Source: Nitrososphaerota archaeon
GTDB lineage: Archaea > Thermoproteota > Nitrososphaeria > Nitrososphaerales > Nitrosopumilaceae
Reading direction: 5' to 3'
DNA length: 64,000 nucleotides
NCBI GenBank assembly: GCA_028866895.1
Contig: JAGWHF010000003.1
Coordinates: 141,989 to 205,988, forward strand
Every line of letters starts with the position of its first letter. Within the stretch, counting starts at the first letter, position 1. The translations under genes were made by a program, and so were the position numbers. This document shows positions 19,152 through 54,437 of the stretch, in pieces. The notes under the pieces were generated by a model. That model was not told the DNA's origin. It saw nothing but the letters and a program-made list of their open reading frames with translations, and did not search any database.

Positions 19152-19487
19152 ATGCACAGTCAAGCGGCCAGACAGAAGCAGGTACATCTCTTTGATAACA
19201 TAAAACTTGACCTCCAAAGAGAACTACCGCAATTGCTGTATGACATTTATGAAATGTCAAAGAGGAACAGCTGTCTTGTAGATGTAGAGCTTAATGCAAT
19301 ATCATTGTACCAAGAGCAAGGCTCCAGACTCAAAGTAATAAAGATAGCAATAGGAAGAAACAAGCATGTAGAGAGGGTAACTAAGATGGTCTTTGAAAAA
19401 CCAAGAGTAGAACCTGTAGAACGGTACATCATGATAGGCATTGACGGTACCACTCCAATATGGAAACCTGATGATATAAAGTCCTAG
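19152..19487 (+). CDS. Hypothetical protein (111 aa)
   Basis: The sequence alternates amphipathic strands and helices (LFDNIKLDLQRELPQLLYDIYEMS; SCLVDVELNAISLYQEQGSRLKVIKIAIG; ERYIMIGIDGTTPIWKPDD). The pattern resembles a compact alpha/beta domain; I recognise no family. It converges on the TBP gene with a four-base overlap. Its composition is protein-like on this strand and not on the other. Confidence 0.5.
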   Translation: MHSQAARQKQVHLFDNIKLDLQRELPQLLYDIYEMSKRNSCLVDVELNAISLYQEQGSRLKVIKIAIGRNKHVERVTKMVFEKPRVEPVERYIMIGIDGTTPIWKPDDIKS

Positions 19488-20041
19488 TTTGCTATCAGCC
19501 TTTTCTCTTGTAACATGATACCAAGGTTATGCACGGCTCTATAGACCTCGGATTCCTTTTTTGTACCTGCACATACAAGTTTTCCCGACGCAAAGAGAAG
19601 CATCACTGCCTTTGGGTCCATCATCCTGTGAATCAGTCCCGGAAACTGTTCGGGCTCGTACATTGACCTTGGCATGGCCCGTGCTGCAGGCTCTAGATGT
19701 ATCTTACTTCCAAGATTCACAGATGCTACAATGTTCTGTACAGTAATCTCAGGTTCGTTGCTAATCTTGATGCCGCCCTTTCTGAGATTATCCACCACTG
19801 TCTTTACCGCAAGAATTGACTGCTTTTCAGACTTGGCACCCGTACAGACAAACTTGCCTGAGCTGAAGACAAGCGTCGCAGTCTTGGGAGAGCCCAACCT
19901 AAATACCAGACCTGGAAACTTTTCCGGGTGGTATTCAGTATCAGGAAAGCGTCGTGTTATTTCCATAAGGTTTATCCTCTGGTCTACCGATGCAGAGGCG
20001 ACAACGTTTTCTATAGATACAAAAGGTTTTGGCAGCGACAT
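19484..20041 (-). CDS. tbp: TATA-box-binding protein (TBP)
   Basis: 185 residues made of two TBP repeats of about 90 residues: VSIENVVASASVDQRINLMEI...PGLVFRLGSPKTATLVFSSGKFVCTGAKS, and VQNIVASVNLGSKIHLEPAA...PGLIHRMMDPKAVMLLFASGKLVCAGTK. This is full length for archaeal TBP, with the DNA-binding saddle residues intact. A strong TATA box (20062-20072) lies 26 bases upstream of ATG 20041, so the mRNA is probably leaderless. It lies inside the predicted integrated element, so it is either an extra TBP or evidence against the left boundary. Confidence 0.95.
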   Translation of the reverse strand: MSLPKPFVSIENVVASASVDQRINLMEITRRFPDTEYHPEKFPGLVFRLGSPKTATLVFSSGKFVCTGAKSEKQSILAVKTVVDNLRKGGIKISNEPEITVQNIVASVNLGSKIHLEPAARAMPRSMYEPEQFPGLIHRMMDPKAVMLLFASGKLVCAGTKKESEVYRAVHNLGIMLQEKRLIAN

Positions 20042-21122: not shown

Positions 21123-22253
21123 TTATCCACCTTTACTCGCGTTTTGTATCAATGTTTTCCATTTATCATTTCCGTTAATTTGTATTCCACATGCTTCACT
21201 AGGTGTCTTACCTGCTAGTCCTTCATGTGGTCTAATGTAGTTATGAAATATCTGATAACCGTTGATTAGTGGGGAATCTTCTTTTTTCAGTCCTCTTACT
21301 ACTTTTTCTCTATCTCTAAACTCACCATTGAGCCTTTCCATCTTGTTATTGTTCATATCACCTTGAAGTCTGATATGCTTAATGTGAACGGTTCTAGGAT
21401 TCTTTTGTACGAAAAATTCCTTCCTAAATGCTTCATCATAGGAAGGTAGTCCGTCAGTTATCATAACTTTAGGGCTTGTTTTTGTTACTTGTTTTGCTTC
21501 CCTGAATAGACCGCTAGCGTCATGACCTTCCTTCTTGTCTGATACTTCCTTTGCTATCCAGTAGCGTGTTTCATCATCCATAAGAGCAAACAAGTACTTC
21601 TTGTCGCCTTTTACTTTAACCCATACTTCATCAGCTCTCCAAGTATCTCCTACCTGTGGAGTTATGTTTTCAAGATATTTTTCCATCAATCCAGTGTATT
21701 TCTTAATCCAACCATAGACTGTACTATGTGCTACATTGACACCTTGTAATTTTAAGAACTGTGTTACTTTTCTTAACGATTCTCCTGTGAAATAGAGTTG
21801 CATGGCAGATGTTATCACTTTAGGATTGACTTTCATCTTTTCAAATCCAAGATTGAATGAAAATCTGTTCTTGCAATCCTTGCAAGTGTATCTTTGAAGA
21901 TCGTATTTCGTGTTGTGTCTGATTCCATGCTTTACTATATTGATTGATTGGCATCGTGGACACTTGTCATTAGCCTGTTGTTCTATTATCACTCGGTTCT
22001 TTTCTCGTACCTGTTGTCGTAGTTTTAGGCTAAACTCTACTGCGTGAATATGCTTGCAACATGTCTTTCTGAATTTATGATCGTCACAAGTACAGATCCA
22101 ACCGCTTTCAGTAGAGATTACATCGTATTCTCTCTTGGTTGTCTGTGATTTTACGTGGTAAGTGTAATCGTTAATCCTTAGAATCTGCTGATTGGGATTG
22201 AGGGCTATTTCCTTTCCTCTTTCTTCTCTGTTGCATTTGTTGTCTGATTTCAA
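21123..22253 (-). CDS. DDE transposase with SWIM and zinc-ribbon domains (IS6/IS240-like)
   Basis: 376 residues. The N-terminus has a SWIM-type zinc finger (CTCDDHKFRKTCCKHIHAV), then a zinc ribbon (CPRCQSINIVKHG...CKDCKNRF), a helix-turn-helix region (SLRKVTQFLKLQGVNVAHSTVYGWIKKY) and a DDE integrase core. Catalytic residues are the Asp in WRADEVW, the Asp in ITDGLPSY and the Glu in NNKMERLNGEFRDRE. All three are present and the frame is intact, so it may be active. I could not find terminal inverted repeats or target-site duplications. The gene interrupts a run of leftward genes. Confidence 0.85.
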   Translation of the reverse strand: MKSDNKCNREERGKEIALNPNQQILRINDYTYHVKSQTTKREYDVISTESGWICTCDDHKFRKTCCKHIHAVEFSLKLRQQVREKNRVIIEQQANDKCPRCQSINIVKHGIRHNTKYDLQRYTCKDCKNRFSFNLGFEKMKVNPKVITSAMQLYFTGESLRKVTQFLKLQGVNVAHSTVYGWIKKYTGLMEKYLENITPQVGDTWRADEVWVKVKGDKKYLFALMDDETRYWIAKEVSDKKEGHDASGLFREAKQVTKTSPKVMITDGLPSYDEAFRKEFFVQKNPRTVHIKHIRLQGDMNNNKMERLNGEFRDREKVVRGLKKEDSPLINGYQIFHNYIRPHEGLAGKTPSEACGIQINGNDKWKTLIQNASKGG

Positions 22254-24034: not shown

Positions 24035-24510
24035 AAAAGGGATTAGATTATTCAGAGAGTTTCAGAAATTCCAAGATACAGTAAAAGAGTTGAAAATTAG
24101 ATATTAGAGTGCAAGAGATGAGACGGTAGAAATAATAAAAAAGAAAAGAATTGAGAAGATGTAAAAGACAAAAATGTAAAAACGAACAATAAAAATTAGA
24201 ACCTAAAGCTAGAAAGCAAATATCAAAGAAATGTGAATTACGAAGTTCAAGAAAAAAGATAATCTGAAACTATATAGTTTTCAAGATAAGAGAAAACTGG
24301 AAAGAAAGAAGATGCTGCACAAGATGCAGAAAGAAAAAAGAAAAGAAAAAACAAAATACGTATAATATGGCGGTAAAGCGCATTTTTGGCAAAAACAAGG
24401 AAATCTTTAGGCATGAGTCATTCGTGATGATCAAATTTCCTTACTAGTTTTTGCCAGTTTCGTTGTGCAGCAGGTTTCAAACCTTTGTGCAGCATGTAAT
24501 CAAAGCCAAG
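24035..24510. other. Gene-free A-rich region with clustered repeats
   Basis: From 24035 to about 24380 the plus strand is strikingly purine-rich (many AAGAAAAG runs) with no credible gene. From 24313 onward it contains a decamer TTGTGCAGCA (inverted at 24313-24322, direct at 24463-24472 and 24485-24494), a palindrome AGGTTTCAAACCT (24472-24484) and a large inverted repeat (24388-24455). Next to an actin-like/AbrB gene set this is a candidate centromere-like site or origin. Confidence 0.5.
24388..24455. repeat. Composite inverted repeat
   Basis: GGCAAAAAC (24388-24396) and AAGGAAAT (24397-24404) recur inverted as ATTTCCTT (24435-24442) and GTTTTTGCC (24447-24455), separated by a 30-base centre. 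Seventeen of the arm bases pair perfectly, with a 4-base bulge on the right side. Confidence 0.7.
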
Positions 24511-24549
24511 AAAACCATATGGTTTTTAGTACCAAAACCCTATGGTTTT
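24511..24549. promoter_or_regulatory. Two near-identical palindromes upstream of an AbrB-fold gene (candidate operator)
   Basis: AAAACCATATGGTTTT (24511-24526) is a perfect 16-base palindrome. AAAACCCTATGGTTTT (24534-24549) is the same with one change. Their starts are 23 bases apart, roughly two helical turns. They end 34 bases before ATG 24584 of a SpoVT/AbrB-type DNA-binding protein, a typical position for autoregulation. Confidence 0.7.
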
Positions 24550-24583
24550 TCCATGCTTTTATGGATTGTATAATTGTAGTACC

Positions 24584-24880
24584 ATGACACAGAAAATCTA
24601 TGCAAGAAGTGTGATGAAGATGGGCCATGAGCCGCAGCACTCTCTTATGGTCACAATACCAAGAAAGATCTGCAAGATATTACAGATTGAGAAAGGAACG
24701 ATACTCTACTTCAAGCTTGAAGAGAATCGTTTTGTCGTATCAAAAGACAGAAAATTTCTTGAGTGCAGTCCAGAAGATATCCATGATGATACAGCCACAA
24801 TCGAATCTCTAAATCAGATAACAAAAGAAAAGAGGAATGTCATTATGGACGGGATATCTCTTGCTGACCTTCAGTACTAG
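24584..24880 (+). CDS. AbrB/SpoVT-type DNA-binding protein (98 aa)
   Basis: From ATG 24584 (MTQKIYARSVMKMG). Residues about 18-55 form a swapped-hairpin AbrB domain: HSLMVTIPRKICKILQIEKG, then TILYFKLEENRFVVSK. The C-terminal 45 residues are acidic and may be a partner-binding tail. An in-frame ATG at 24542 would lie within the second palindrome, so the later start is preferred. Twin palindromes just upstream suggest autoregulation. It converges on the actin-like gene with a 38-base overlap. In bacteria small AbrB proteins serve as antitoxins or plasmid regulators; no toxin is recognisable beside it. Confidence 0.7.
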   Translation: MTQKIYARSVMKMGHEPQHSLMVTIPRKICKILQIEKGTILYFKLEENRFVVSKDRKFLECSPEDIHDDTATIESLNQITKEKRNVIMDGISLADLQY

Positions 24881-25385
24881 GCGATATCATACTGCCAAGC
24901 TTGTACAATCCTGCAGCATTAGAGTACACTGGATCTTTTGCTATTCTAAGACTGTTTTGTACTTTTATCTGCAAAGATTCGCACAGCCCTTCTACAAGCG
25001 CTCCACCGCCTGACACATAGATGTCATATTCCTTGTTTAGCTTGGTCTGAAAGACTGCAAGCTTGTTGGCAAGGATTGTAGTAAGTGCGTCTATCCTTTT
25101 CTTATCTGCAGTATTTTTTTCATGTTCAAGATATGCAAGATCGTCGTACAGATAGTCACATGCTTGAGGAATCGATACACCAGTAACTGGCTTGAGGTCT
25201 TCAAAGAGGACAAGCTCCGTTGTTCCCTGTCCTATCGACAGTATGATTCCAGTCCTTGCATCTTCGGACAATAACGTGCCAATCGACTGCGGTATGACAA
25301 GCGCCTGTCTTGGCTTTAAGCTCCGCTCTACTAGTTTCTCAAGATACTGTTTCTGCTGCGCTGCACCGTATGGAAGTCCCATCAC
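24843..25385 (-). CDS. Actin-like ATPase (ParM/StbA type), C-terminal part after a frameshift
   Basis: About 180 residues from GTG 25385. It carries the phosphate-2 motif of the actin/Hsp70 superfamily (IILSIGQGTTELVLF) and the adenosine motif (IYVSGGGALVEGL). In front of them is IPQSIGTLLSEDA, which matches the connect-1 region. The same frame reads upstream through GSFVVVMGLPYG, a typical beta strand of these proteins, back to a stop at 25410. The N-terminal half lies in the adjoining frame (25388-25702), and together they make one actin-like fold of about 285 residues, close to archaeal ParM-like proteins. Confidence 0.7.
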   Translation of the reverse strand: MMGLPYGAAQQKQYLEKLVERSLKPRQALVIPQSIGTLLSEDARTGIILSIGQGTTELVLFEDLKPVTGVSIPQACDYLYDDLAYLEHEKNTADKKRIDALTTILANKLAVFQTKLNKEYDIYVSGGGALVEGLCESLQIKVQNSLRIAKDPVYSNAAGLYKLGSMISPSTEGQQEISRP

Positions 25386-25387
25386 AA

Positions 25388-25702
25388 CTACAAATGATCC
25401 AGATCTCTTTCACATCCTAGCTTTCGCACTGCTTCCCTGATGATAGCTACAAAGGCCTTCTCTTCTGCTATCCTGCCCTCAAGAACCGCCCTTACAAGTA
25501 CGGTATCAGGATAGATAGACATCCTTACAGCGTCGTATCCCACAGCTTCGATTGTTCCTTCCTTTGGGTCCTCCCATCGTGTCATCTTTCTGGTCCCGTA
25601 TACTGATGGGAATAATACCTGCATGTGTGCAGATACACATTTCACAAATCCCGTTACCGCATCTATTGCTATGATGTCATCATTGTTCTTGTATTCCATC
25701 AT
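25388..25702 (-). CDS. Actin-like ATPase (ParM/StbA type), N-terminal part before a frameshift
   Basis: 104 residues containing the phosphate-1 motif (IIAIDAVTGFVKCVS; compare D-x-G-x-G-x-x-K), then QVLFPSVYG, an EAVGYDAVR segment and the helix AIIREAVRKLG. It stops at 25388, while the -1 frame continues the fold. The two frames share only the window 25388-25409, so a single-base change or a -1 ribosomal shift there (around GAAAGA) would restore the full protein. It follows the 316-residue AbrB-like gene by 30 bases in the same direction. Confidence 0.7.
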   Translation of the reverse strand: MMEYKNNDDIIAIDAVTGFVKCVSAHMQVLFPSVYGTRKMTRWEDPKEGTIEAVGYDAVRMSIYPDTVLVRAVLEGRIAEEKAFVAIIREAVRKLGCERDLDHL

Positions 25703-25732
25703 ACCCCCAACGGTACAAAGTTTAAAAGGGCA

Positions 25733-26683
25733 TTAGAAATCCATTTCAGATTCGTCTTCATGATACGAGTCTTTGCTCTCAAATCTCTCTTCTCCATATA
25801 GCTCTGGATCGTCGCCTTTTGCCTCAATGTACGAGTCTGGATCATCAAGCATGTTCTCGCGGCGTGCATCATAATCGTAACCATACCTTTCAGACCTGAC
25901 GAAATCCTTCCTGTAGCGCCATGTTGTCCTGACACCAAATCTTTTCTGCAGAAATTGTTTCCTCTTTTGCTTCTTCTCCCTTTCCATTGCTACACGAAGT
26001 CTTACAAAATCGGTATACGATATTGAGACAAGGTTCATTGATTCAAGCTTGTTCCAGACCAGCCTGTGTATGTTCTTTCTCTCATAGATTATTCTCTTCA
26101 TGGCAATATCGTAATTGAGCGGACTGTTTCTTGTAGTCCAGTATGCATCGCTTTCCTCTTTTGCAAGATCCTCCTTTCTTCTTGCAAGCTTTGTCCTGTA
26201 GAGGCTTTTCATGTCACGGTATCTCTGAAATTTTACGATGCAGACATGCACTTCCTGTCCCGGTGTATCACCTTTTAGAAAGCAATTGCCATTCTTGTAT
26301 ATTGCACTATATACATACTCGTCTATCTGGGTATCAAACCCTATCACAAGCTCGGTTCCCGCACCCCATCCAAACTTGTTGCATACCTTCTTTGGTATGA
26401 TGATATATATGCTTGATTTACCGCTTCGCTGTATAGTTGTGGTGGATGTCTTGTCATGGATACCATTTGGAGGAAGCTCATTGTCCCAGACGCTGAGCAG
26501 AAAGCATCTTGGGTTTTCCACATCTTCGTAGAAGTAGCGAAATCGTGAAAAGTTTTCAAGCCTCCTCGATATGTTGGCATCATATGATGCTATCTTTTTC
26601 TCAAGCTTCCTTGGAAAAGATACGATAAAGGAGCTTTTGCTTGCACTCTTTTTGGTCTTTGTAATCTTTCGGATATAGTACAT
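25733..26683 (-). CDS. Large protein with two AbrB-like hairpins and a charged tail, candidate partition adaptor
   Basis: 316 residues. Two segments resemble SpoVT/AbrB half-sites: KSSFIVSFPRKLEKKIASYD near residues 17-36, and KSSIYIIIPKKVCNKFGWGAGTELVIGFD near 89-117. The middle is helical and basic (RTKLARRKEDLAKEESDAYW; KKQKRKQFLQKRFG). The tail is acidic and tyrosine-rich (YGEERFESKDSYHEDESEMDF). It is the first gene of a unit with the actin-like ATPase. I propose it binds DNA and links it to the actin filament; this role is an inference from gene order. Confidence 0.55.
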   Translation of the reverse strand: MYYIRKITKTKKSASKSSFIVSFPRKLEKKIASYDANISRRLENFSRFRYFYEDVENPRCFLLSVWDNELPPNGIHDKTSTTTIQRSGKSSIYIIIPKKVCNKFGWGAGTELVIGFDTQIDEYVYSAIYKNGNCFLKGDTPGQEVHVCIVKFQRYRDMKSLYRTKLARRKEDLAKEESDAYWTTRNSPLNYDIAMKRIIYERKNIHRLVWNKLESMNLVSISYTDFVRLRVAMEREKKQKRKQFLQKRFGVRTTWRYRKDFVRSERYGYDYDARRENMLDDPDSYIEAKGDDPELYGEERFESKDSYHEDESEMDF

Positions 26684-27731: not shown

Positions 27732-28646
27732 TCATCTTTTCTTGTTTCCCTTGGAGCCGTCAGCAAGCAACAAACCAAGCTTGTTTATCAGGGACGCAAC
27801 TTCCCTGCTCTTGAATTTTTTTTGCAGCGAGAGTTTCTCTTTTTCAATCTCCTTGAAGGTCTTGTTCCACCTTGATGCATCAATGTGTCCTTTTATTGCA
27901 TCCCTGATGATATTTTGTAATTCATTTGGAGGCAGTGCGTCAAGCTCCCAGCACTGATTCCCGTACTGTGAAGAATATTCCTTCCACCTGCTGTCACTTA
28001 TCTTGGTCGGCATTGGTTCAAGCCCAAACTGTCTCACCTGTGTGTATGTTAACGCTATGCGCTTTACCTTGGCATGTGAGCCATAGCGGTATAGTCTTGA
28101 CTGAATATCCTCTGTCATGTTCAGTCCGCTAGGATCGTGGTCTGCAAAGTGAAGTATCGTGATCGGTCTGTCCCCATACATGGAGAACCTCTTGTTGATT
28201 GCCTCGTATACCTTGGTAAAAGAAGAGTAGCCCCTGCTTGGATATGTCACCACCCTGTATCCGTCAGCAATGGTAGAAAACAGGGTGGCAAGAGCGTCCT
28301 TTTCTACCCACACCTCCACGTACTGCGGCTGGTTGTCCCATATCCTTCTTGTATATTGTTCTGTATCTTCAAGTTCTGATATTTTGGTCCTGACAAAATC
28401 CTGTACTGATGCATAACCGTAATCGCCGCCTATCACCTGCCTTGCGCGATCCACTATGCTTCTTGCATCGATATCACCCTTCTCCCTGCCCCGAGTTATC
28501 ATCCTGTCAAAGAGCTTGTAGCTGTTTATGGTATTCTGGATGAATCCACTTGATACGAGTCGGTAAAAGATCTGTCTTACGGTAAGAAGCATATTGTACT
28601 GTGACATGATATCGTTTGTAGCTCTAACATATTCTTGGTAACGCAA
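27732..28646 (-). CDS. Stand-alone Topo VI-A/Spo11-like protein with Toprim domain (Mini-A type)
   Basis: 304 residues. The N-terminal winged-helix (CAP-like) part has TVRQIFYRLVSSGFI, whose Tyr28 sits where Topo VI-A/Spo11 carries the DNA-cleaving tyrosine. The Toprim domain follows with Glu115 (EVWVEKDAL) and Asp169/Asp171 (HFADHDPSG), the metal-binding set. The length is shorter than Topo VI-A (about 360-390) and no Topo VI-B gene is nearby. This fits the compact A-subunit-only (Mini-A) proteins reported from mobile elements. It probably makes or relaxes DNA breaks during element replication or resolution. Confidence 0.75.
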   Translation of the reverse strand: MRYQEYVRATNDIMSQYNMLLTVRQIFYRLVSSGFIQNTINSYKLFDRMITRGREKGDIDARSIVDRARQVIGGDYGYASVQDFVRTKISELEDTEQYTRRIWDNQPQYVEVWVEKDALATLFSTIADGYRVVTYPSRGYSSFTKVYEAINKRFSMYGDRPITILHFADHDPSGLNMTEDIQSRLYRYGSHAKVKRIALTYTQVRQFGLEPMPTKISDSRWKEYSSQYGNQCWELDALPPNELQNIIRDAIKGHIDASRWNKTFKEIEKEKLSLQKKFKSREVASLINKLGLLLADGSKGNKKR

Positions 28647-28818: not shown

Positions 28819-28947
28819 ATGATTGTATCAGAGACAGAAAAAGATGATGATATATTTGTCGAGGTAAGAAAAGATGACCTTCAAAAGATTCTTGAACTTG
28901 TCAAGATACTTCAGACTCGCCTAGAACCCGCTCAACGATCCCCCTGA
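28819..28947 (+). CDS. Putative small acidic protein (42 aa)
   Basis: ATG 28819 opens MIVSETEKDDDIFVEVRKDD, then LQKILELVKILQTRLEPAQRSP: an acidic start and a clear leucine-rich helix with heptad-like spacing. Its 3' end overlaps the recombinase gene by 47 bases on the other strand. Small size makes this tentative. Confidence 0.35.
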   Translation: MIVSETEKDDDIFVEVRKDDLQKILELVKILQTRLEPAQRSP

Positions 28948-30079
28948 GTCTTTTGAGCTCCTCCCTTACCGTCTGGTCTTCAATTGACATCCTGCTCTGC
29001 TCCTTTGGGTCAAGAGGGCTTGCACACCTTGGGCAGTAAAGCATACCTGGAGATGCCCTCTCCGAGCATCTGGGGCATATCGCAGGTGCAAACTCTGGCT
29101 TTGGCGGCTCGACCGGTCTGCCAGAGTATAATGCAGATAGCTTGCCATCAAGATCCTTTCCGGAGAGATGAACGTATACAGCTGGCATCTTGGATCCCAT
29201 AGTCCACCCGTACATTATCTTGAGCTCAGAATCTGTCAAAAACTGGGCGTTCCTTGTTGCAGAGCCGTGCCTTAGCATATGGTTGAAGACCCGTTTCGAT
29301 ATTCCTGCCCGTCTTGCAAGAGATTTGAGCCTCCTGTTCCACATTGTCCAGCTCACCCGATAGTTTCTGTAGTTTGTGCTCTGGGTTAGCCAGAGCGGCG
29401 AGATTGGATCAGCTGGCAGAGGATGGGTCTGCATATACTGCGATAGTAAAGTTACTGAAGCTATAAGACGGACGATTCTCTCGCCCGTCTTGCCCTGTAC
29501 TCTTATCCTTGCACCCCTGTCATCAAATGTTACATCGCCTATATCCAGCAGTAAAAGCTCGGTTGCTCTAAGCCCTGCCTCAAAGCCGACTGCGAGCATG
29601 GCCTTGTCTCGTAATGTACAAGCTGTCTTTATCATCATCTCTACCTCGCTGCTTGTAAAAAACTCTGGCTGCCTTTTCTCGTTTGGCTTGATTGCCTTGT
29701 GCATCCATCTTACCTCGTCTGGCCACGGAGTCTCCTTGTCGACATTGCCATACCTTACAAACTTGTAGAACCTCTTTACAGCCAGGATATAGTCTGATGC
29801 AGTATGCGGTGCATAACCTGAGCTGTTCAACCAAGATACAAAGCGTTCTATATCTGCACGCCTTGCATCCTCAATCGGGACACCAAGATGCTCTGCAAAG
29901 TTCTTTAAATGAAACAAGTACTTGGCAAGCCTTCCCTTGCTTACGCCCATGCTGGAGAGATGATAGATGAACTTTCTGATGATATCTCTATCATGTTGTG
30001 ATATCTTGGATTCGTCAAGACGCTTGTAGGCATTTTGCATGGCATACTCGTAATTGTATATCTCGTCTACGACCTTCAT
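28901..30079 (-). CDS. Tyrosine recombinase (integrase) with C-terminal zinc ribbon
   Basis: About 392 residues from ATG 30079; a TTTTTAAGG (minus strand CCTTAAAAA) centred near 30103 is a fitting TATA box. An upstream ATG at 30136 would add 19 residues. The SAM-like N-terminal domain (RKFIYHLSSMG...SGYAPHTASDYILAVKRFYKFV) precedes the catalytic domain. Catalytic residues are Arg in GLRATELLLLD, His-x-x-Arg in HMLRHGSAT, and probably the Tyr in PAVYVHLSG. The C-terminus has a four-cysteine zinc ribbon (CPRCSERASPGMLYCPRC). It lies beside tRNA-Leu and should have inserted the element there. Confidence 0.9.
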   Translation of the reverse strand: MKVVDEIYNYEYAMQNAYKRLDESKISQHDRDIIRKFIYHLSSMGVSKGRLAKYLFHLKNFAEHLGVPIEDARRADIERFVSWLNSSGYAPHTASDYILAVKRFYKFVRYGNVDKETPWPDEVRWMHKAIKPNEKRQPEFFTSSEVEMMIKTACTLRDKAMLAVGFEAGLRATELLLLDIGDVTFDDRGARIRVQGKTGERIVRLIASVTLLSQYMQTHPLPADPISPLWLTQSTNYRNYRVSWTMWNRRLKSLARRAGISKRVFNHMLRHGSATRNAQFLTDSELKIMYGWTMGSKMPAVYVHLSGKDLDGKLSALYSGRPVEPPKPEFAPAICPRCSERASPGMLYCPRCASPLDPKEQSRMSIEDQTVREELKRLRGIVERVLGESEVS

Positions 30080-30145
30080 ACTATATGGAGACTGTTTTCT
30101 TTTTAAGGCATAATCGAATCCGCGATTTGAATGCATAGATTAGTA

Positions 30146-30156
30146 TGCGGGAGAAG
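30146..30156 (+). repeat. Candidate right attachment site (attR) in tRNA-Leu 3' end
   Basis: TGCGGGAGAAG, identical to 14740-14750. It covers the discriminator and 3' acceptor strand of tRNA-Leu. Integration at this point leaves the tRNA intact, as is usual for tyrosine recombinases. Confidence 0.6.
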
Positions 30157-30230
30157 GGATTTGAACCCTCGAAATCCTAAGATACTAGCCCCTCAAGCTA
30201 GCGCCTTTGACCAGGCTGGGCGACTCCCGC
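30146..30230 (-). tRNA. tRNA-Leu (anticodon GAG)
   Basis: An 85-nt type II tRNA. The acceptor stem GCGGGAG/CTCCCGC pairs perfectly, with discriminator A. The anticodon arm is CTAGC-TTGAGGG-GCTAG, giving anticodon GAG. There is a long variable arm (around CTTAGGATT) and a T-arm GAGGGTTCAAATCCCTT. CCA is not encoded. Its 3' end is the integration site of the element. Confidence 0.95.
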
Positions 30231-30250
30231 ATTTGCATTACCCATGTATG

Positions 30251-49713: not shown

Positions 49714-50010
49714 GCCCCAAGGAATGGCCATCATACCACATACCACCTCCTCAGAGGAAGGGATGATGCACACAATGAAAAACTATGATCAGGCTGAATT
49801 TTGCCCGACTCTACGACTAGGCTCATGCATTACATTAGGCTGTGTCTGGTCATTTGAATTAAAACCTAGGGCCCTTGAGGGGTTTGATCTAATTAGTTTA
49901 GTACCCTCTAACAACATTAAATGACCAATTTAACGGATTTTCATCCATTTACAGCAAATAACAACTCTTGAAGCAACACCTTAGGCTCTCTGACATGTGA
50001 TCTTGAAGTA
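49714..50010. other. About 300 bases between convergent genes, nothing recognised
   Basis: Lies between the propeller gene and the 3' end of TFB. A possible 66-codon frame at 49724-49924 has no protein-like character. No RNA gene or long repeat is seen. Confidence 0.4.
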
Positions 50011-50958
50011 TCAAACTGCTACGTTTGTCTTAGAAGGCATTTTGATATCCAACAATTCTCGCAATCCTTTGTGTCTATTCCTTATTGTTACTTCCGTGAC
50101 GCCTGCTGCCATAGCAATGACTTTCTGCGTTACATCTTCCTTGTTTATTACACATGCGAGATAAAGCGCCGCAGCAGCAAGGCCCATAGGATCTTTTCCT
50201 GCAGTAATTTCCATCTTGTTGGCATCTTCCAAAATTGTAAGTGCATAACGTTTTACTTTTTCATTTAGTTTGGCTTGACTTGATATTCTCGATATGCATT
50301 TTATAGGATCTAAAACGGGCATTGTGAGATCAAGCTCTTTTAGAAGCAATCGGTAGCATCTTGACACATCCTTTCTTTTTATGTTGATTTGACATGCTAC
50401 ATCATTTAGTGTTCTTGGGGTGCCAGTTTCCCTACATGCCAAGTAAATAGATGCTGCAATCATTCCAGAAATTGATCTTCCTCTTGCAAGATTTTTTTCT
50501 ACGGCTTTTCTATAAATATACGCAGTCTTTTCTACCACTGAATCAGACAGTGCAAGTTTGTCTTTTATTCTACCAAGATCACTAAATGCCTGTCTAAGAT
50601 TCCTCTCGTGGGACTCTTTAGCCTGGCTCCTACTATCCCATGTTCGGAGCCGCTTGATTGTAATCCTCATTGAAGCTGAAAGTGGTTTTCCAGTGGCATC
50701 GTTATCGTAATGTCCTATGACTGTTGCTAGCCCCATGTCGTGTTTCGCAAGTGATGATGATCCTCCAGTTCTTGATCTTTCCTCATACTCCTCTTTTGAA
50801 AATGAGCGTTTCTCCGGACCCGAGTCATCAATTCGTTCATTAATAACAAAACCACATCCTCCACAAAATCTCTCACCAGTTGATACATCAGTAACCATTA
50901 AGCCTTTTCCACAACGATTGCAGCGCATACTAGCACCATCATGATTTTGAAAAACCAT
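50011..50958 (-). CDS. tfb: Transcription initiation factor B (TFB/TFIIB)
   Basis: 315 residues. The N-terminal zinc ribbon is CNRCGKGLMV...FCGGCGFV. The B-linker/reader has GPEKRSFSKEEYEERSRTGG, and two cyclin folds follow (about residues 115-205: RGRSISGMIAASIYLACRETGTPRTLNDVA; 215-305: DPMGLAAAALYLACVINKEDVTQKVIAMAAGVTEVTIRNRHKGL). It recruits RNA polymerase to TBP-bound promoters. Ammonia-oxidising archaea often hold several TFBs; this one lies in an accessory stretch. Its start region is duplicated upstream. MRCNRCGK at residue 11 is an alternative start. Confidence 0.95.
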   Translation of the reverse strand: MVFQNHDGASMRCNRCGKGLMVTDVSTGERFCGGCGFVINERIDDSGPEKRSFSKEEYEERSRTGGSSSLAKHDMGLATVIGHYDNDATGKPLSASMRITIKRLRTWDSRSQAKESHERNLRQAFSDLGRIKDKLALSDSVVEKTAYIYRKAVEKNLARGRSISGMIAASIYLACRETGTPRTLNDVACQINIKRKDVSRCYRLLLKELDLTMPVLDPIKCISRISSQAKLNEKVKRYALTILEDANKMEITAGKDPMGLAAAALYLACVINKEDVTQKVIAMAAGVTEVTIRNRHKGLRELLDIKMPSKTNVAV

Positions 50959-51020
50959 CAGAATATCGCAGATGTATAGTTCTTATTCAATAAGAATGGT
51001 TGTATTTTGACAAACCATCA
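50944..51020 (-). promoter_or_regulatory. Duplicated start region and 17-base palindrome upstream of TFB, with a small upstream frame
   Basis: ATTTTGAAAAACCATCA (50944-50960, holding the TFB start) recurs as ATTTTGACAAACCATCA (51004-51020), 60 bases upstream and 16 of 17 identical. The upstream copy opens an 11-codon frame (51018 to 50983: MVCQNTTILIE) in register with TFB, whose protein starts MVFQN. Between them TTCTTATTCAATAAGAA (50980-50996) is a perfect palindrome. The arrangement could control TFB expression. Confidence 0.55.
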
Positions 51021-51064
51021 CACCAATAGCAACAGATAGTAATATCAGATCCGCATCCTACTGC

Positions 51065-51301
51065 ATGAAAGCAAAGGATAAACCCGTTGATTTGATCTGG
51101 GTATCAACTAACTTTTCTAGTGTGTTCTTTTCTGAAAAGGAAATAAAACGGTTCCTAAGTTCACTCATACCTAAAAATGGTAACGCATCCAAGGGATTAG
51201 GCATAGAATTTCTCGAAACGCATTTGAATAAGAAATACCCCAAAAATGAAATCATGAATGCAACTCCAGAGCAGCTTAAAAAGATGATAATCTTACCTTA
51301 A
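51065..51301 (+). CDS. Hypothetical small protein (78 aa)
   Basis: It reads MKAKDKPVDLIWVSTNFSS, then FFSEKEIKRFLSSLIPKN, then NEIMNATPEQLKKMIILP: a strand-helix-helix pattern with good protein character. No family recognised. It is divergent from TFB, and its start lies just upstream of the duplicated TFB leader. Confidence 0.5.
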   Translation: MKAKDKPVDLIWVSTNFSSVFFSEKEIKRFLSSLIPKNGNASKGLGIEFLETHLNKKYPKNEIMNATPEQLKKMIILP

Positions 51302-51400
51302 AACATCGTCTTGTCCACAGCAGGCCGTCAATTGTATTTCTCGTTATGCTTTGAAGTTTGTCATGCGTCATATTTCCCAGATTGTCCCTTATGCCTCATC

Positions 51401-51694
51401 TTACGCCATACTTACGGATTTTAAGGTCATAACAGAACGCACTGTTCTCATACTTCGTATTTCTTTGTCAATCAGTTCTGTCAAATCCATTTCATTCATG
51501 CCTTCAAATTTGACGATTATATCATATTGTCCCATAGTTCGTTGGATCTCACTAATTGGTTTGAGTGTCGCTATTTTTTTTAAAATTAGTTCTTCTTTGC
51601 CTACATCACATGTAATTAAGACATAAGTTGTATTTAGGGTATAATTTTTTATCATTTCATCGTGATCAAGATGTTCCACTATGTGTTGTTCCAT
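51401..51694 (-). CDS. Stand-alone Lrp/AsnC ligand-binding (RAM) domain protein
   Basis: 97 residues of the alpha/beta RAM fold: TTYVLITCDVGKEELILKKIATL, then ISEIQRTMGQYDIIVKFEGMNEMDLTELI, then IRSMRTVRSVMTLKSVSM. There is no helix-turn-helix, so it is not a DNA binder alone. Such stand-alone RAM proteins form octameric rings that bind amino acids or partner with full-length Lrp proteins. Several copies are usual in this phylum. Confidence 0.85.
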   Translation of the reverse strand: MEQHIVEHLDHDEMIKNYTLNTTYVLITCDVGKEELILKKIATLKPISEIQRTMGQYDIIVKFEGMNEMDLTELIDKEIRSMRTVRSVMTLKSVSMA

Positions 51695-51831
51695 GCTATA
51701 ATTTTCCTAGTTGTATTACGTTATCACTCCTAATAAAGCAGCGTAATGTCTTATTCCGGTAGAAAATGGCAAAATAGGTTTTATTTGACATGCCATACAT
51801 CATAGTAAATGAAAAGATTACCCTCAACATC

Positions 51832-52227
51832 CTATTGATTTGTTTCTTCAACATTTATTTTTGCGTATTTTCCGGAGCCAGACGGAATGTGTTCTGCATC
51901 TACAAAGCTGTGCTTGTATTTAGAATACAGGCCCTTTTCCAGATCCTTCCTTGTTGAATCGCCGTTTATTTTCACGTATCTGAAAAAAGACTTTTTTTCT
52001 TTCAAAAACCGACGTAGTTTTTCGTTTGACGCGTTACCTCCAAGATGTTTCAGGTACGTCTCTTTGAGATCAGTGCTTGTGCCGACATAACGCCTGGTAT
52101 AGGTCCCATCAGACGTTTTTCTACCCTGAATCTCATACACTCCGCCAGTTGACGGAATTGATTCTGTGTTTTCATTACGACATTCAATTTTTTCGGACCA
52201 AATGATCCTCAGCGTAGCTTCTGCCAT
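51832..52227 (-). CDS. GIY-YIG-like protein (131 aa)
   Basis: The segment STGGVYEIQGRKTSDGTYTRRYVGTSTDLKETYLKH has the order GVYEI...RYVG-S-DL of a GIY-YIG nuclease core (Tyr, Tyr and Arg positions present). A later KDLEKGLYSKYKHSFVDAE could supply the metal-binding Glu. There is no extra DNA-binding domain, so it is smaller than homing or UvrC-like enzymes. It may act in DNA repair or phage defence. It stands alone, with no cognate methylase. Confidence 0.55.
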   Translation of the reverse strand: MAEATLRIIWSEKIECRNENTESIPSTGGVYEIQGRKTSDGTYTRRYVGTSTDLKETYLKHLGGNASNEKLRRFLKEKKSFFRYVKINGDSTRKDLEKGLYSKYKHSFVDAEHIPSGSGKYAKINVEETNQ

Positions 52228-52474
52228 GCATACTTATGTATAGAATGTAATAAAAGGGCTCGTATTCTTTGCATAGGATGAACACCCCCCCCTTCAATTT
52301 AATATGAAACGATTTTTTCAAAATTTTTTATTAATTTTTTACAAATTCAGCAATAGATAGAATTTAGGAAAAAACGAAAGGCTACAAGTATTTGAGAGAC
52401 ATTTTGAAAAACGTGAGGAAAAACCATTCTGTTTGCTCTAAAGGTTTAGGTTAGGCAAATGACTGACATAATCT

Positions 52475-52741
52475 GTGGTAGAATTCAAAACGTGTAGAAA
52501 GTGTCAAGCAAACAGGGTTGGCATTGAATGGATTAGAAATAGTGTTAATGATGTTATGATATTTAGCAAACCCAAGACTGGCACTGAAAGTCAGAACGTC
52601 TTAAATCATTTAATAGCACACGTAAAACTAGAAATCAACAAAGATGGAAAACCGCCTTGTTCCCTGTGTCTGTTTGAATATGGGCAGATGATCAACGATG
52701 CGATGTATGCATTCAAGAAGCAAAACTATACTCAAAGATAA
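52475..52741 (+). CDS. Hypothetical protein with two CxxC-like pairs (88 aa)
   Basis: From GTG 52475. FKTCRKCQANR near residue 4 and PPCSLCLFEYG near residue 61 could bind one zinc. The middle is QNVLNHLIAHVKLEINKDG. No family recognised. Its A+T-rich surroundings and orphan position fit accessory DNA. Confidence 0.45.
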   Translation: MVEFKTCRKCQANRVGIEWIRNSVNDVMIFSKPKTGTESQNVLNHLIAHVKLEINKDGKPPCSLCLFEYGQMINDAMYAFKKQNYTQR

Positions 52742-52959
52742 AAGAATAAGTTTCGCTTCAAAAGAATTGTTGATAGTAGATTTGTAGTAAAAAAGGGAGA
52801 CAGGATATTCAGCCTCCGTTTGTTTTTATCACCTGGTCTTTGTTGTAGACTTTTTCTGTTTAGTTGCCATTTAGACTAGGAATTTAGAGTAGGAATTTAC
52901 AGAATTATTAAGCATGTTAATGACGTCAAAATACGACAGTTCTTATTAATAGACGATGT

Positions 52960-53361
52960 ATGGCACGTATGCAAAGATGGTGCAAGGTTAGATTTAGTTT
53001 TACCACAGTTGAATCACATTATTATGCAGGAGGACAAACAGATTACGCGATTATTGAGGAAGATATTGAAAGAAAGCTGCCCCCTCACATCAAAAAATCA
53101 CAGCAAGGCAGAGATAAGAGTTTACCAAAAGGATCCTTGGAATATTCCATCAGCTATGATGATGTTGATCTTCCAAAACAAAAAGAAGAGGGCTCGTTTG
53201 CCTGGTTTCTAGCCAAAGATCCTTGCGAGGAGTTGCTTGAAGATGATATTGAACTAGTAAAAAATATCATAAAAAAGACACATGGTGTATCAAAGGATGC
53301 AGATAACAAGGTCAAGTACAAGATAATTCCAGAAGGTGCTATGTACGGAAATAATGGGTAG
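52960..53361 (+). CDS. Hypothetical protein (133 aa) upstream of a radical SAM enzyme
   Basis: ATG 52960. The sequence has VRFSFTTVESHYYAGGQTDYAIIEEDIE, a charged middle, SFAWFLAKDPCEELLEDDIELVKNIIKKTHG and KVKYKIIPEGAMYG. Its last 26 bases overlap the start of the radical SAM gene, so they are likely coupled. It could be a partner or substrate-binding protein, but nothing in it is diagnostic. Confidence 0.5.
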   Translation: MARMQRWCKVRFSFTTVESHYYAGGQTDYAIIEEDIERKLPPHIKKSQQGRDKSLPKGSLEYSISYDDVDLPKQKEEGSFAWFLAKDPCEELLEDDIELVKNIIKKTHGVSKDADNKVKYKIIPEGAMYGNNG

Positions 53362-54295
53362 AGGTTTTTGCCAGATAATTCGAGAATCCCCTGCGTATTT
53401 CCACGTAGGTCTCAAGATTGCAGGCTATAAACTTCTCAATAGGCGTAGCCCAATTTACGGTTCTGCCGATATCATCAACGTATGCAATTTGCATTGCGCC
53501 CACTGTTACTGGTGGCTTAACAGGAAAGAAAACGAGGAACTCACAGTAGAGCAATGGAAAAAAGTAATCGATGAGAAATTCAAAAAGAAACACGTCTTTC
53601 TAATTACTCTTGTAGGAGGAGAACCAACATTAAGGCCGGATGTCATACGGTTGTTTGCAAAAGAATATCCAAATCGAATATGCGTGGTCTCGAATGGAAC
53701 TTTGCCGCTGGTGAAGGTTCCCGGAGTATACTTTTATTGGATTTCAATTGATGGCACAGAACAGGTCCATGACCGCATACGAGGTCAGGGGACATATGAA
53801 AAGACCAGAAACAACATACTAGATTACATTGAAAAAAATGGGAAAAAGGGATGGAAGGACATCTGGATATCCATGACAATAAACTCCTTAAACTACAAAA
53901 CCGTCAGGGAGGTCATAGATGAGTGGCATTTCCATGTCAACAAGATAGGGTTTCAGTTCCACACGCCATTTATGAAAGGCGATCCTCTCTGGCTGCCCTA
54001 TGGTCCGGAAAGGACAAAACTTGTGGACGACATAATAGCACTCAAATCCAGTTACAAGGATGATTACATAATAAATCCAAAAAAACAACTTGAACTTATG
54101 AAGCAAAACTGGGGAGGTAAAGGGACAACCCCTATTGACTGTCCAACGTGGTCGATAATTTCAGTCGATCACATGGGAAGAGAAAAAAGACCATGCTGTA
54201 TTGGAAGTGCGGAAAAAGATTCCCTCAAGCCAATATGCGAGGACTGCGGACTGGGATGTTACTCTGTTTTTGTAGCAAACGGAATGAAAGGGTAA
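53336..54295 (+). CDS. Radical SAM protein with C-terminal cysteine cluster
   Basis: 319 residues (MGRGFCQIIRES at 53354 is an alternative start). The radical SAM cluster motif is CNLHCAHCYW (C-x3-C-x2-C), followed by LVGGEPTLRPD (GGE motif), CVVSNGTL and YFYWISIDGTEQVHDRIRG. The C-terminus has CPTWSI, RPCCIGSAEKDSLKPICEDCGLGCYS, a short cysteine-rich block like a reduced SPASM or HpnH-type tail. It may modify a peptide, a lipid or a cofactor; the substrate is unknown. Coupled to the upstream unknown gene and followed by tRNA-His. Confidence 0.8.
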   Translation: MLCTEIMGRGFCQIIRESPAYFHVGLKIAGYKLLNRRSPIYGSADIINVCNLHCAHCYWWLNRKENEELTVEQWKKVIDEKFKKKHVFLITLVGGEPTLRPDVIRLFAKEYPNRICVVSNGTLPLVKVPGVYFYWISIDGTEQVHDRIRGQGTYEKTRNNILDYIEKNGKKGWKDIWISMTINSLNYKTVREVIDEWHFHVNKIGFQFHTPFMKGDPLWLPYGPERTKLVDDIIALKSSYKDDYIINPKKQLELMKQNWGGKGTTPIDCPTWSIISVDHMGREKRPCCIGSAEKDSLKPICEDCGLGCYSVFVANGMKG

Positions 54296-54364
54296 ACTAT
54301 AACAGATTCTTTGACTCCAAGCGACCTTGCAACAACATCGTATCACCAGTACAAATAGTACAGG

Positions 54365-54437
54365 GGCCCTTGAGGGGAATCGAACCCCTGTCCGGGGATC
54401 CACAGTCCCCTATACTCGCCACTGTACTACAAGGGCC
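54365..54437 (-). tRNA. tRNA-His (anticodon GTG)
   Basis: The anticodon arm is GGGGA-CTGTGGA-TCCCC, anticodon GTG. The acceptor stem GCCCTTG/CAAGGGC is preceded by a genomically encoded G at position -1 facing C73, the identity pair of tRNA-His. The T-arm is AGGGG-TTCGATT-CCCCT. CCA is not encoded. Confidence 0.95.

Follow-up and report, generated by a model that had tools for sequence, protein, structure and literature searches.

The ParR adaptors of actin-driven plasmid partition follow a simple plan, in which a DNA-binding domain carries a short tail that grips the filament. Known archaeal examples of segregation, such as SegAB and AspA-ParB-ParA of pNOB8, use Walker-type ATPases. Here we describe a module of an actin-like gene, two genes for AbrB-like proteins (AbrB316 and AbrB98) and a palindrome array, found in 64,000 nucleotides of a Nitrososphaerota archaeon of the family Nitrosopumilaceae (contig JAGWHF010000003.1, positions 141,989 to 205,988; hereafter the window). 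Like ParMRC of R1 and pSK41, the module combines a putative actin-fold ATPase, a small, tailed and predicted DNA-binding protein and a repeat-bearing cis site on a mobile element. We suggest that it is probably an actin-driven DNA-partition system of integrative elements in Nitrosotalea-type archaea, with an adaptor of the AbrB fold.

The module is not a canonical ParMRC, since a ribbon-helix-helix ParR, sought beside the actin gene, is not a conserved partner there; the conserved neighbours are AbrB98 and AbrB316. The ParMRC adaptor is a ribbon-helix-helix protein encoded downstream in one operon with its actin, whereas the candidate adaptor of the module is AbrB/MazE-like and its gene is convergent with that of the actin. 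Unlike ParMRC, the module also has the extra AbrB316 gene before the actin gene and a palindromic cis site upstream of the candidate adaptor; in type II partition, the kind to which ParMRC belongs, the centromere repeats normally precede the actin operon.

Integrative elements can use actin-type partition, as the precedent of SrpMRC in SXT/R391 demonstrates, with its srpM-srpR-int operon and upstream srpC (PMC4489591). There, too, the partition genes lie beside an integrase and the adaptor is unrelated in sequence to ParR; however, SrpMRC is bacterial and otherwise organised, and the accessible part of the paper reports no AbrB proteins (PMC4489591). AlpA-AlpC-alpS of the Corynebacterium prophage CGP3 likewise joins an actin-like protein, an adapter and DNA sites on an integrated element, but it is bacterial, is reported to serve viral DNA transport and replication, and no AbrB fold is reported for it in the portion of the source available (PMC5539076). 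Salactin (PMC10746226), volactin and crenactin also belong to the archaeal actin family, but are not described, in the accessible parts of their literature, on mobile elements with AbrB genes. In thaumarchaeal integrative-conjugative elements (ICEs) TFIIB-ParB is a known gene pair, and the text of Krupovic et al. 2019 does not mention actin (PMC6563490). The same actin family occurs downstream of TFIIB-ParB in ICE-like loci; that module, however, uses ParB/wHTH/c15 (wHTH, winged helix-turn-helix) and not the AbrB trio. An earlier note on this DNA had stated that no described archaeal system of such composition was known to its author, and our literature search, mostly of open-access papers, likewise found no prior description of archaeal partition by actin and AbrB proteins.

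In window coordinates, the module consists of the following parts:

25733-26683 (-): AbrB316, first gene of the actin operon, with one probable AbrB-like hairpin at about residues 78-116
25388-25702 (-): N-terminal part of the actin-like gene, its phosphate-1 (P1) loop mutated from DAGTG to DAVTG
24843-25385 (-): remaining, C-terminal part of the actin-like gene, separated from the N-terminal part by a frameshift, its last 38 bp overlapping AbrB98 convergently
24584-24880 (+): AbrB98, AbrB/MazE-like, the candidate DNA-binding adaptor, with an in-frame upstream ATG at 24542
24534-24549 (no strand): array site 3, AAAACCCTATGGTTTT, at a distance of 23 bp, or about two helical turns, from site 2
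24511-24526 (no strand): array site 2, AAAACCATATGGTTTT, whose whole-genome matches are confined to four modules
24387-24456 (no strand): inverted repeat with arms 24387-24402 and 24441-24456 (CAAAAACAAGGAAA / TTTCCTTAC..GTTTTTG), kept between copies
24340-24399 (no strand): noncoding core (AAATACGTATAATATGGCGGTAAAGCGC...GGCAAAAACAAGGAAAT), with 44 of its 60 positions unchanged across 7 copies
24266-24281 (no strand): array site 1, 16-bp palindrome GAAACTATATAGTTTT, consensus AAAACTATAKGGTTTT, conserved in 8 of 8 arrays examined

The four open reading frames (ORFs) of this list had been claimed in the earlier note and are present, and our ORF survey agrees with it that no plausible gene lies between 24035 and about 24583.

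The gene order, AbrB316 followed by the actin gene and then by convergent AbrB98, recurs. Four copies are found in the genome of the window (G000), where the three further copies of the 2.7-kb region are 72-80% identical to it, and others in genomes G360, G363, G370 and G348. This bears out the co-occurrence that the earlier note had proposed as a check. The recurring modules share gene order, convergent overlap and the diagnostic cis-array; contigs that end inside the module (in G370 and G368) hold either AbrB316 with a partial actin gene or only AbrB98. AbrB316 is present in 6 of the 37 genomes of the genus. An integrase lies upstream of the module in every contig that reaches far enough, with a tRNA gene (Leu, Ser, Gly or Glu) beside it in most contigs scanned. 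Multi-copy carriage is not peculiar to the genome of the window, since the metagenome-assembled genome REEA14 (G370; C133, C264, C272, C256, C316) holds at least four AbrB316 copies, plus a further AbrB98-bearing contig.

The assignment to the actin/Hsp70 superfamily, first made from motifs, holds for the intact relatives. The intact actin matches PHROG 691, annotated 'partition protein' (E 8.8e-19), and, in a profile search of the Protein Data Bank, MamK, MreB and actin (best E 5.5e-10), with Pfam MreB/ALP_N matches under their cut-offs. AlphaFold, given a 29-sequence alignment, returned for an intact orthologue a clear fold (pLDDT, the predicted local distance difference test, 88.4; predicted template modelling score 0.86) nearest to MreB, MamK and actin. 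Hence, the predicted actin-superfamily fold of the intact orthologues is secure. Across the 29 sequences the family conserves P1, the adenosine loop and the catalytic Gln, but not the phosphate-2 (P2) Asp.

In the window itself the gene is probably a pseudogene, as judged from two lesions. Aligned with the three same-genome paralogues, each an uninterrupted frame of about 284 aa, it lacks 1 nt at the junction of its two fragments; in addition it reads DAVTG, having lost the glycine of D-x-G-T that is kept in all 29 aligned relatives. An assembly error could be the source of the 1-nt deletion, but hardly of both lesions. Programmed frameshifting was ruled out: the three paralogues are in one frame, no obvious slippery sequence is seen, and the invariant P1 Gly is gone. 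The gene here is thus not as the earlier note described it and, as it is broken, the system of the window is presumably no longer functional.

The actin gene and AbrB98 overlap convergently by 38 bp in the window, against 41 bp in every other complete copy, and this overlap encodes the C-terminal tail of AbrB98, GISLADLQY, which follows a linker of variable sequence and length. The tail consensus across AbrB98 members is (G/D)(I/V)SL(A/S/V)(D/E)L(Q/G)Y. Among 30 changes from the consensus in the overlap, counted so that those shared by descent enter more than once, 13 are nonsynonymous in the AbrB98 frame vs 27 in the actin frame, with about 75% expected in each. Therefore, selection acts on the AbrB98 tail. 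Marine actin-linked AbrB proteins also have short conserved C-terminal tails (SRIEKLRMR, SRLEKLKMK, NPLDKLRL). By analogy with ParR, the AbrB98 tail may bind actin.

AbrB98 had been called an AbrB protein in the earlier note, and on profile evidence it is convincingly AbrB/MazE-like: PF04014 finds 7 of the 8 members (best 1.2e-5), the window protein scoring under the gathering cut-off (20.5 vs 24.7 bits), and the AbrB98 profile matches AbrB58 of ICEs (7.2e-5). For AbrB316 the two AbrB-like hairpins first claimed are reduced to one. Residues of about 78-116 weakly match AbrB models (TIGR01439, E 0.0024; PHROG 661, 1.7e-4) and PF04014 matches 3 of 8 members (best 0.0032); the N-terminal hairpin matches no AbrB model, and the protein has no match to A10. 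The C-terminal half is predicted to be helical and ends in an acidic tail with DDPDSY/DDPE.Y motifs; the AlphaFold model of AbrB316 is uninformative (pLDDT 45). AbrB316 lies immediately upstream of the actin gene on the same strand and is probably co-transcribed with it. A palindrome at the AbrB316 start, TTGTATCC-A-GGATACAA, was set aside as most copies show no conservation of it.

The palindromes, the inverted repeat and the three decamer copies (TTGTGCAGCA at 24463 and 24485, inverted at 24313) that the earlier note had seen in the gene-free region are all found, and the repeat region is conserved in 8 copies. The array has three 16-bp palindromes, AAAACYMTAKRGTTTT, with site 1 followed after about 210-245 bp by sites 2 and 3 at a spacing of 23-24 bp. 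In the window the pattern of the palindromes is matched 7 times vs 0.44 expected, 6 of them being both strands of the three sites; two 16-bp palindromes occurred within 344 bp in 51 of 2000 shuffles, which is modest as a single-sequence statistic. Searched with up to one mismatch, the whole 2.26-Mb genome has its array sites, 11 of 11, in the four modules, while the reversed control has 4 matches. The exact double site occurs in 4 of the 37 genomes of the genus, all 4 among the 6 that carry AbrB316. In some copies both palindrome arms change symmetrically (AAAACTATATAGTTTT in L108, AAAATCATATGATTTT in L109), and the palindromes thus fit a dimer-binding site. The noncoding core is the most conserved stretch on the AbrB98 side of the module and exceeds the AbrB98 coding sequence in conservation.

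In 7 of the 8 arrays, sites 2 and 3 directly precede AbrB98. In G360 (L107) and G363 an inserted ATPase gene displaces the array from AbrB98, with the core intact and convergent genes on both flanks; the two insertions are nearly the same and count as one event, not two. Since the array stands there between convergent genes, it is not merely a promoter operator, and a centromere-like site or an origin is the better fit.

A small ORF over the array core (MAVKRF...KNKEIF) is probably fortuitous, as its third codon positions are equally conserved and its length varies from 22 to 80 codons. Beside some arrays only (L107, L020, L140), and several arrays or actins overall, stands a family whose N-terminus looks ribbon-helix-helix-like by eye (L107 12849-13394 and 13855-14499, L020 11823-12416, L140 1811-2287, L119 10994-11563). 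It has no Pfam match, and no relative in the element of the window.

Beyond the trio, a broader profile was run on 250 genomes of the host's family and finds the actin family in 30. Within the sampled phylum these actins are nearly confined to the host's family; the one exception is a broken copy (G432). Weak Pfam Salactin/Volactin matches are obtained for related actins, with marginal sequence similarity. IMG/VR contains no AbrB316 and no actin of the trio type, with one distant actin-like match. At many loci the actin gene follows a TFIIB-ParB-wHTH cluster, directly or a few genes further on, as in the ICE-like loci L022, L026, L029, L114 and L123. At loci of the ICE type it is often followed by a gene for a small basic protein whose C-terminal tail is conserved (SILDMNKMA or FENW-type motifs). 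The actin family is bound to the mobilome. Of 101 AbrB-family matches in 12 genomes, 19 lie no more than 4.5 kb from one of 30 actin genes, where 1.4 are expected; AbrB-like genes are close to the actin at 18 of the 30 loci, and the marine genus alone has 10 such matches vs 0.74 expected. Because the copies are related, the p-values of this excess overstate independence. Given this enrichment of AbrB-like ORFs, it is plausible that an AbrB protein takes the adaptor role of the ribbon-helix-helix protein.

Topoisomerase-like genes related to PHROG 6247 also occur beside the actin gene without AbrB316, in marine Nitrosopumilaceae (L124, L127, L129, L135, L137). L129 (CATQGX010000001.1) is labelled Gammaproteobacteria but encodes an actin of this thaumarchaeal family, together with an AbrB protein and a topoisomerase-like protein; it is probably a mis-binned archaeal contig.

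We propose the following course of partition, in which DNA binding, capture of actin by the tail, polymerisation and segregation are the inferred steps. AbrB98 dimers, possibly together with AbrB316, would bind the three-palindrome array through the AbrB fold, the array serving as a centromere-like site. The flexible C-terminal tail of AbrB98 would then capture filaments of the actin-like ATPase, and ATP-driven filament growth would separate the copies of the element while it is excised and replicating. AbrB316 may act as a second DNA- or filament-binding factor.

Several points weigh against this proposal. Where MamK has its P2 Asp (aligned with residue 155 of the L107 protein), all 29 sequences have another residue, Ser in 28 and Asn in 1, a change that may affect ATP hydrolysis. 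AbrB316 is weakly AbrB-like by its profile matches. Typical centromeres have more iterons than the three palindromes of the array, which lies upstream of AbrB98, not of the actin operon. Plasmid and phage records gave no match, and no extrachromosomal form was found. No attachment-site duplication, that is, no repeat of the tRNA end, was found around the element of the window, and its far end is thus undefined. Finally, the broken actin of the window has not led to any evident loss of the element, which is expected if the element is integrated and lends no support.

The main rival, which we regard as unlikely, is that the module replicates the element: array and core would be the origin, AbrB316, perhaps with the topoisomerase-like protein, the initiator, AbrB98 a regulator, and the actin would position or assist the replisome, as proposed for phage actins. 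Pfam recognised no other replication initiator among the element proteins of the window, and the core, the most conserved DNA, stays discrete when displaced. A topoisomerase-like gene is near in G000-type elements and adjoins the actin in the marine loci described above. However, AbrB316 has no match to a replication family, the family that the actin matches is one of partition proteins, and the G360/G363/G348 type has no topoisomerase-like gene. Next comes a transcriptional switch, in which AbrB98 would repress itself or functions of the element at the palindromes of its own promoter and the actin-fold protein would be a non-polymerising regulator. AbrB proteins are commonly regulators, and both the usual place of sites 2 and 3 immediately 5' of AbrB98 and the missing P2 Asp speak for such a switch; but in G360/G363 the array has no adjacent promoter to control, its sites occur nowhere else in the genome, other element promoters included, and the nearest folds are filament-forming actins. 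We consider this still less probable than an origin.

It is very improbable that the module is a toxin-antitoxin or addiction system with AbrB98 as a MazE-type antitoxin. AbrB98 does match the MazE/AbrB family and a PemK/MazF-like gene (PF02452, 5.2e-12) is near one copy (L004/L021), but the toxin-like gene is at that copy only, elsewhere GNAT acetyltransferases or small ORFs fill the slot, and the constant partner is the actin. Partition of the integrative element is the reading that we favour.

The trio of the window lies in a segment of low GC (guanine plus cytosine) content, about 0.33-0.46 from about 14.5 to 30 kb, vs about 0.50 outside. The region is best read as an integrated element, with foreign composition and an integrase adjoining a tRNA gene, the sole match of an Rfam search:

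27732-28646 (-): topoisomerase-like protein (PHROG 6247 'DNA topoisomerase', 9.1e-71), kept in G000-type elements and absent from the G360/G363/G348 type
28901-30136 (-): tyrosine recombinase, the integrase of the element (PF00589, 9.3e-17; XerA-like, NF040815, 1.4e-31)
30145-30231 (-): tRNA-Leu(GAG), the presumed integration target, adjoining the integrase at the end of the low-GC segment

The element also contains a DDE transposase of the IS240 type (21123-22253 (-), 4.8e-18), consistent with decay, and encodes a TATA-binding protein (19484-20041 (-), Pfam TBP 3.5e-56), which may be an element-borne general transcription factor; in a second copy, a relative is encoded close to the module (L019 6871-7431). 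The cargo slot between AbrB316 and the topoisomerase-like gene varies (L019 12346-12849, L020 8275-8778, L021 8738-9097); it holds a GNAT acetyltransferase in two copies and the PemK/MazF-like gene in another, while in the window it is filled by small ORFs. At 50000-54000 of the window, right before tRNA-His (54363-54436), the GC content is low once more (0.38), and this stretch is possibly another integrated element.

Last but not least, we tentatively extend the partition reading beyond the trio. The modules might represent a class of their own in the actin-driven segregation of archaeal mobile elements, with AbrB-fold proteins in place of ribbon-helix-helix adaptors and each lineage pairing a mobilome-spread actin with its own tailed DNA-binding protein. 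The partners would be AbrB98 here, longer AbrB proteins with EKLRM-type tails in marine Nitrosopumilaceae, and ParB with the small basic protein in the ICE-like loci.

Little is known of how archaeal plasmids and integrative elements segregate; the recurrence of the actin-AbrB module, together with its defined 300-bp cis site specific to the element, opens this question to direct tests. If our proposal is true, the AbrB fold would be able to serve as a centromere-binding adaptor. The analysis also reveals in ammonia-oxidising archaea a widespread actin family that the published survey of the thaumarchaeal mobilome does not mention.

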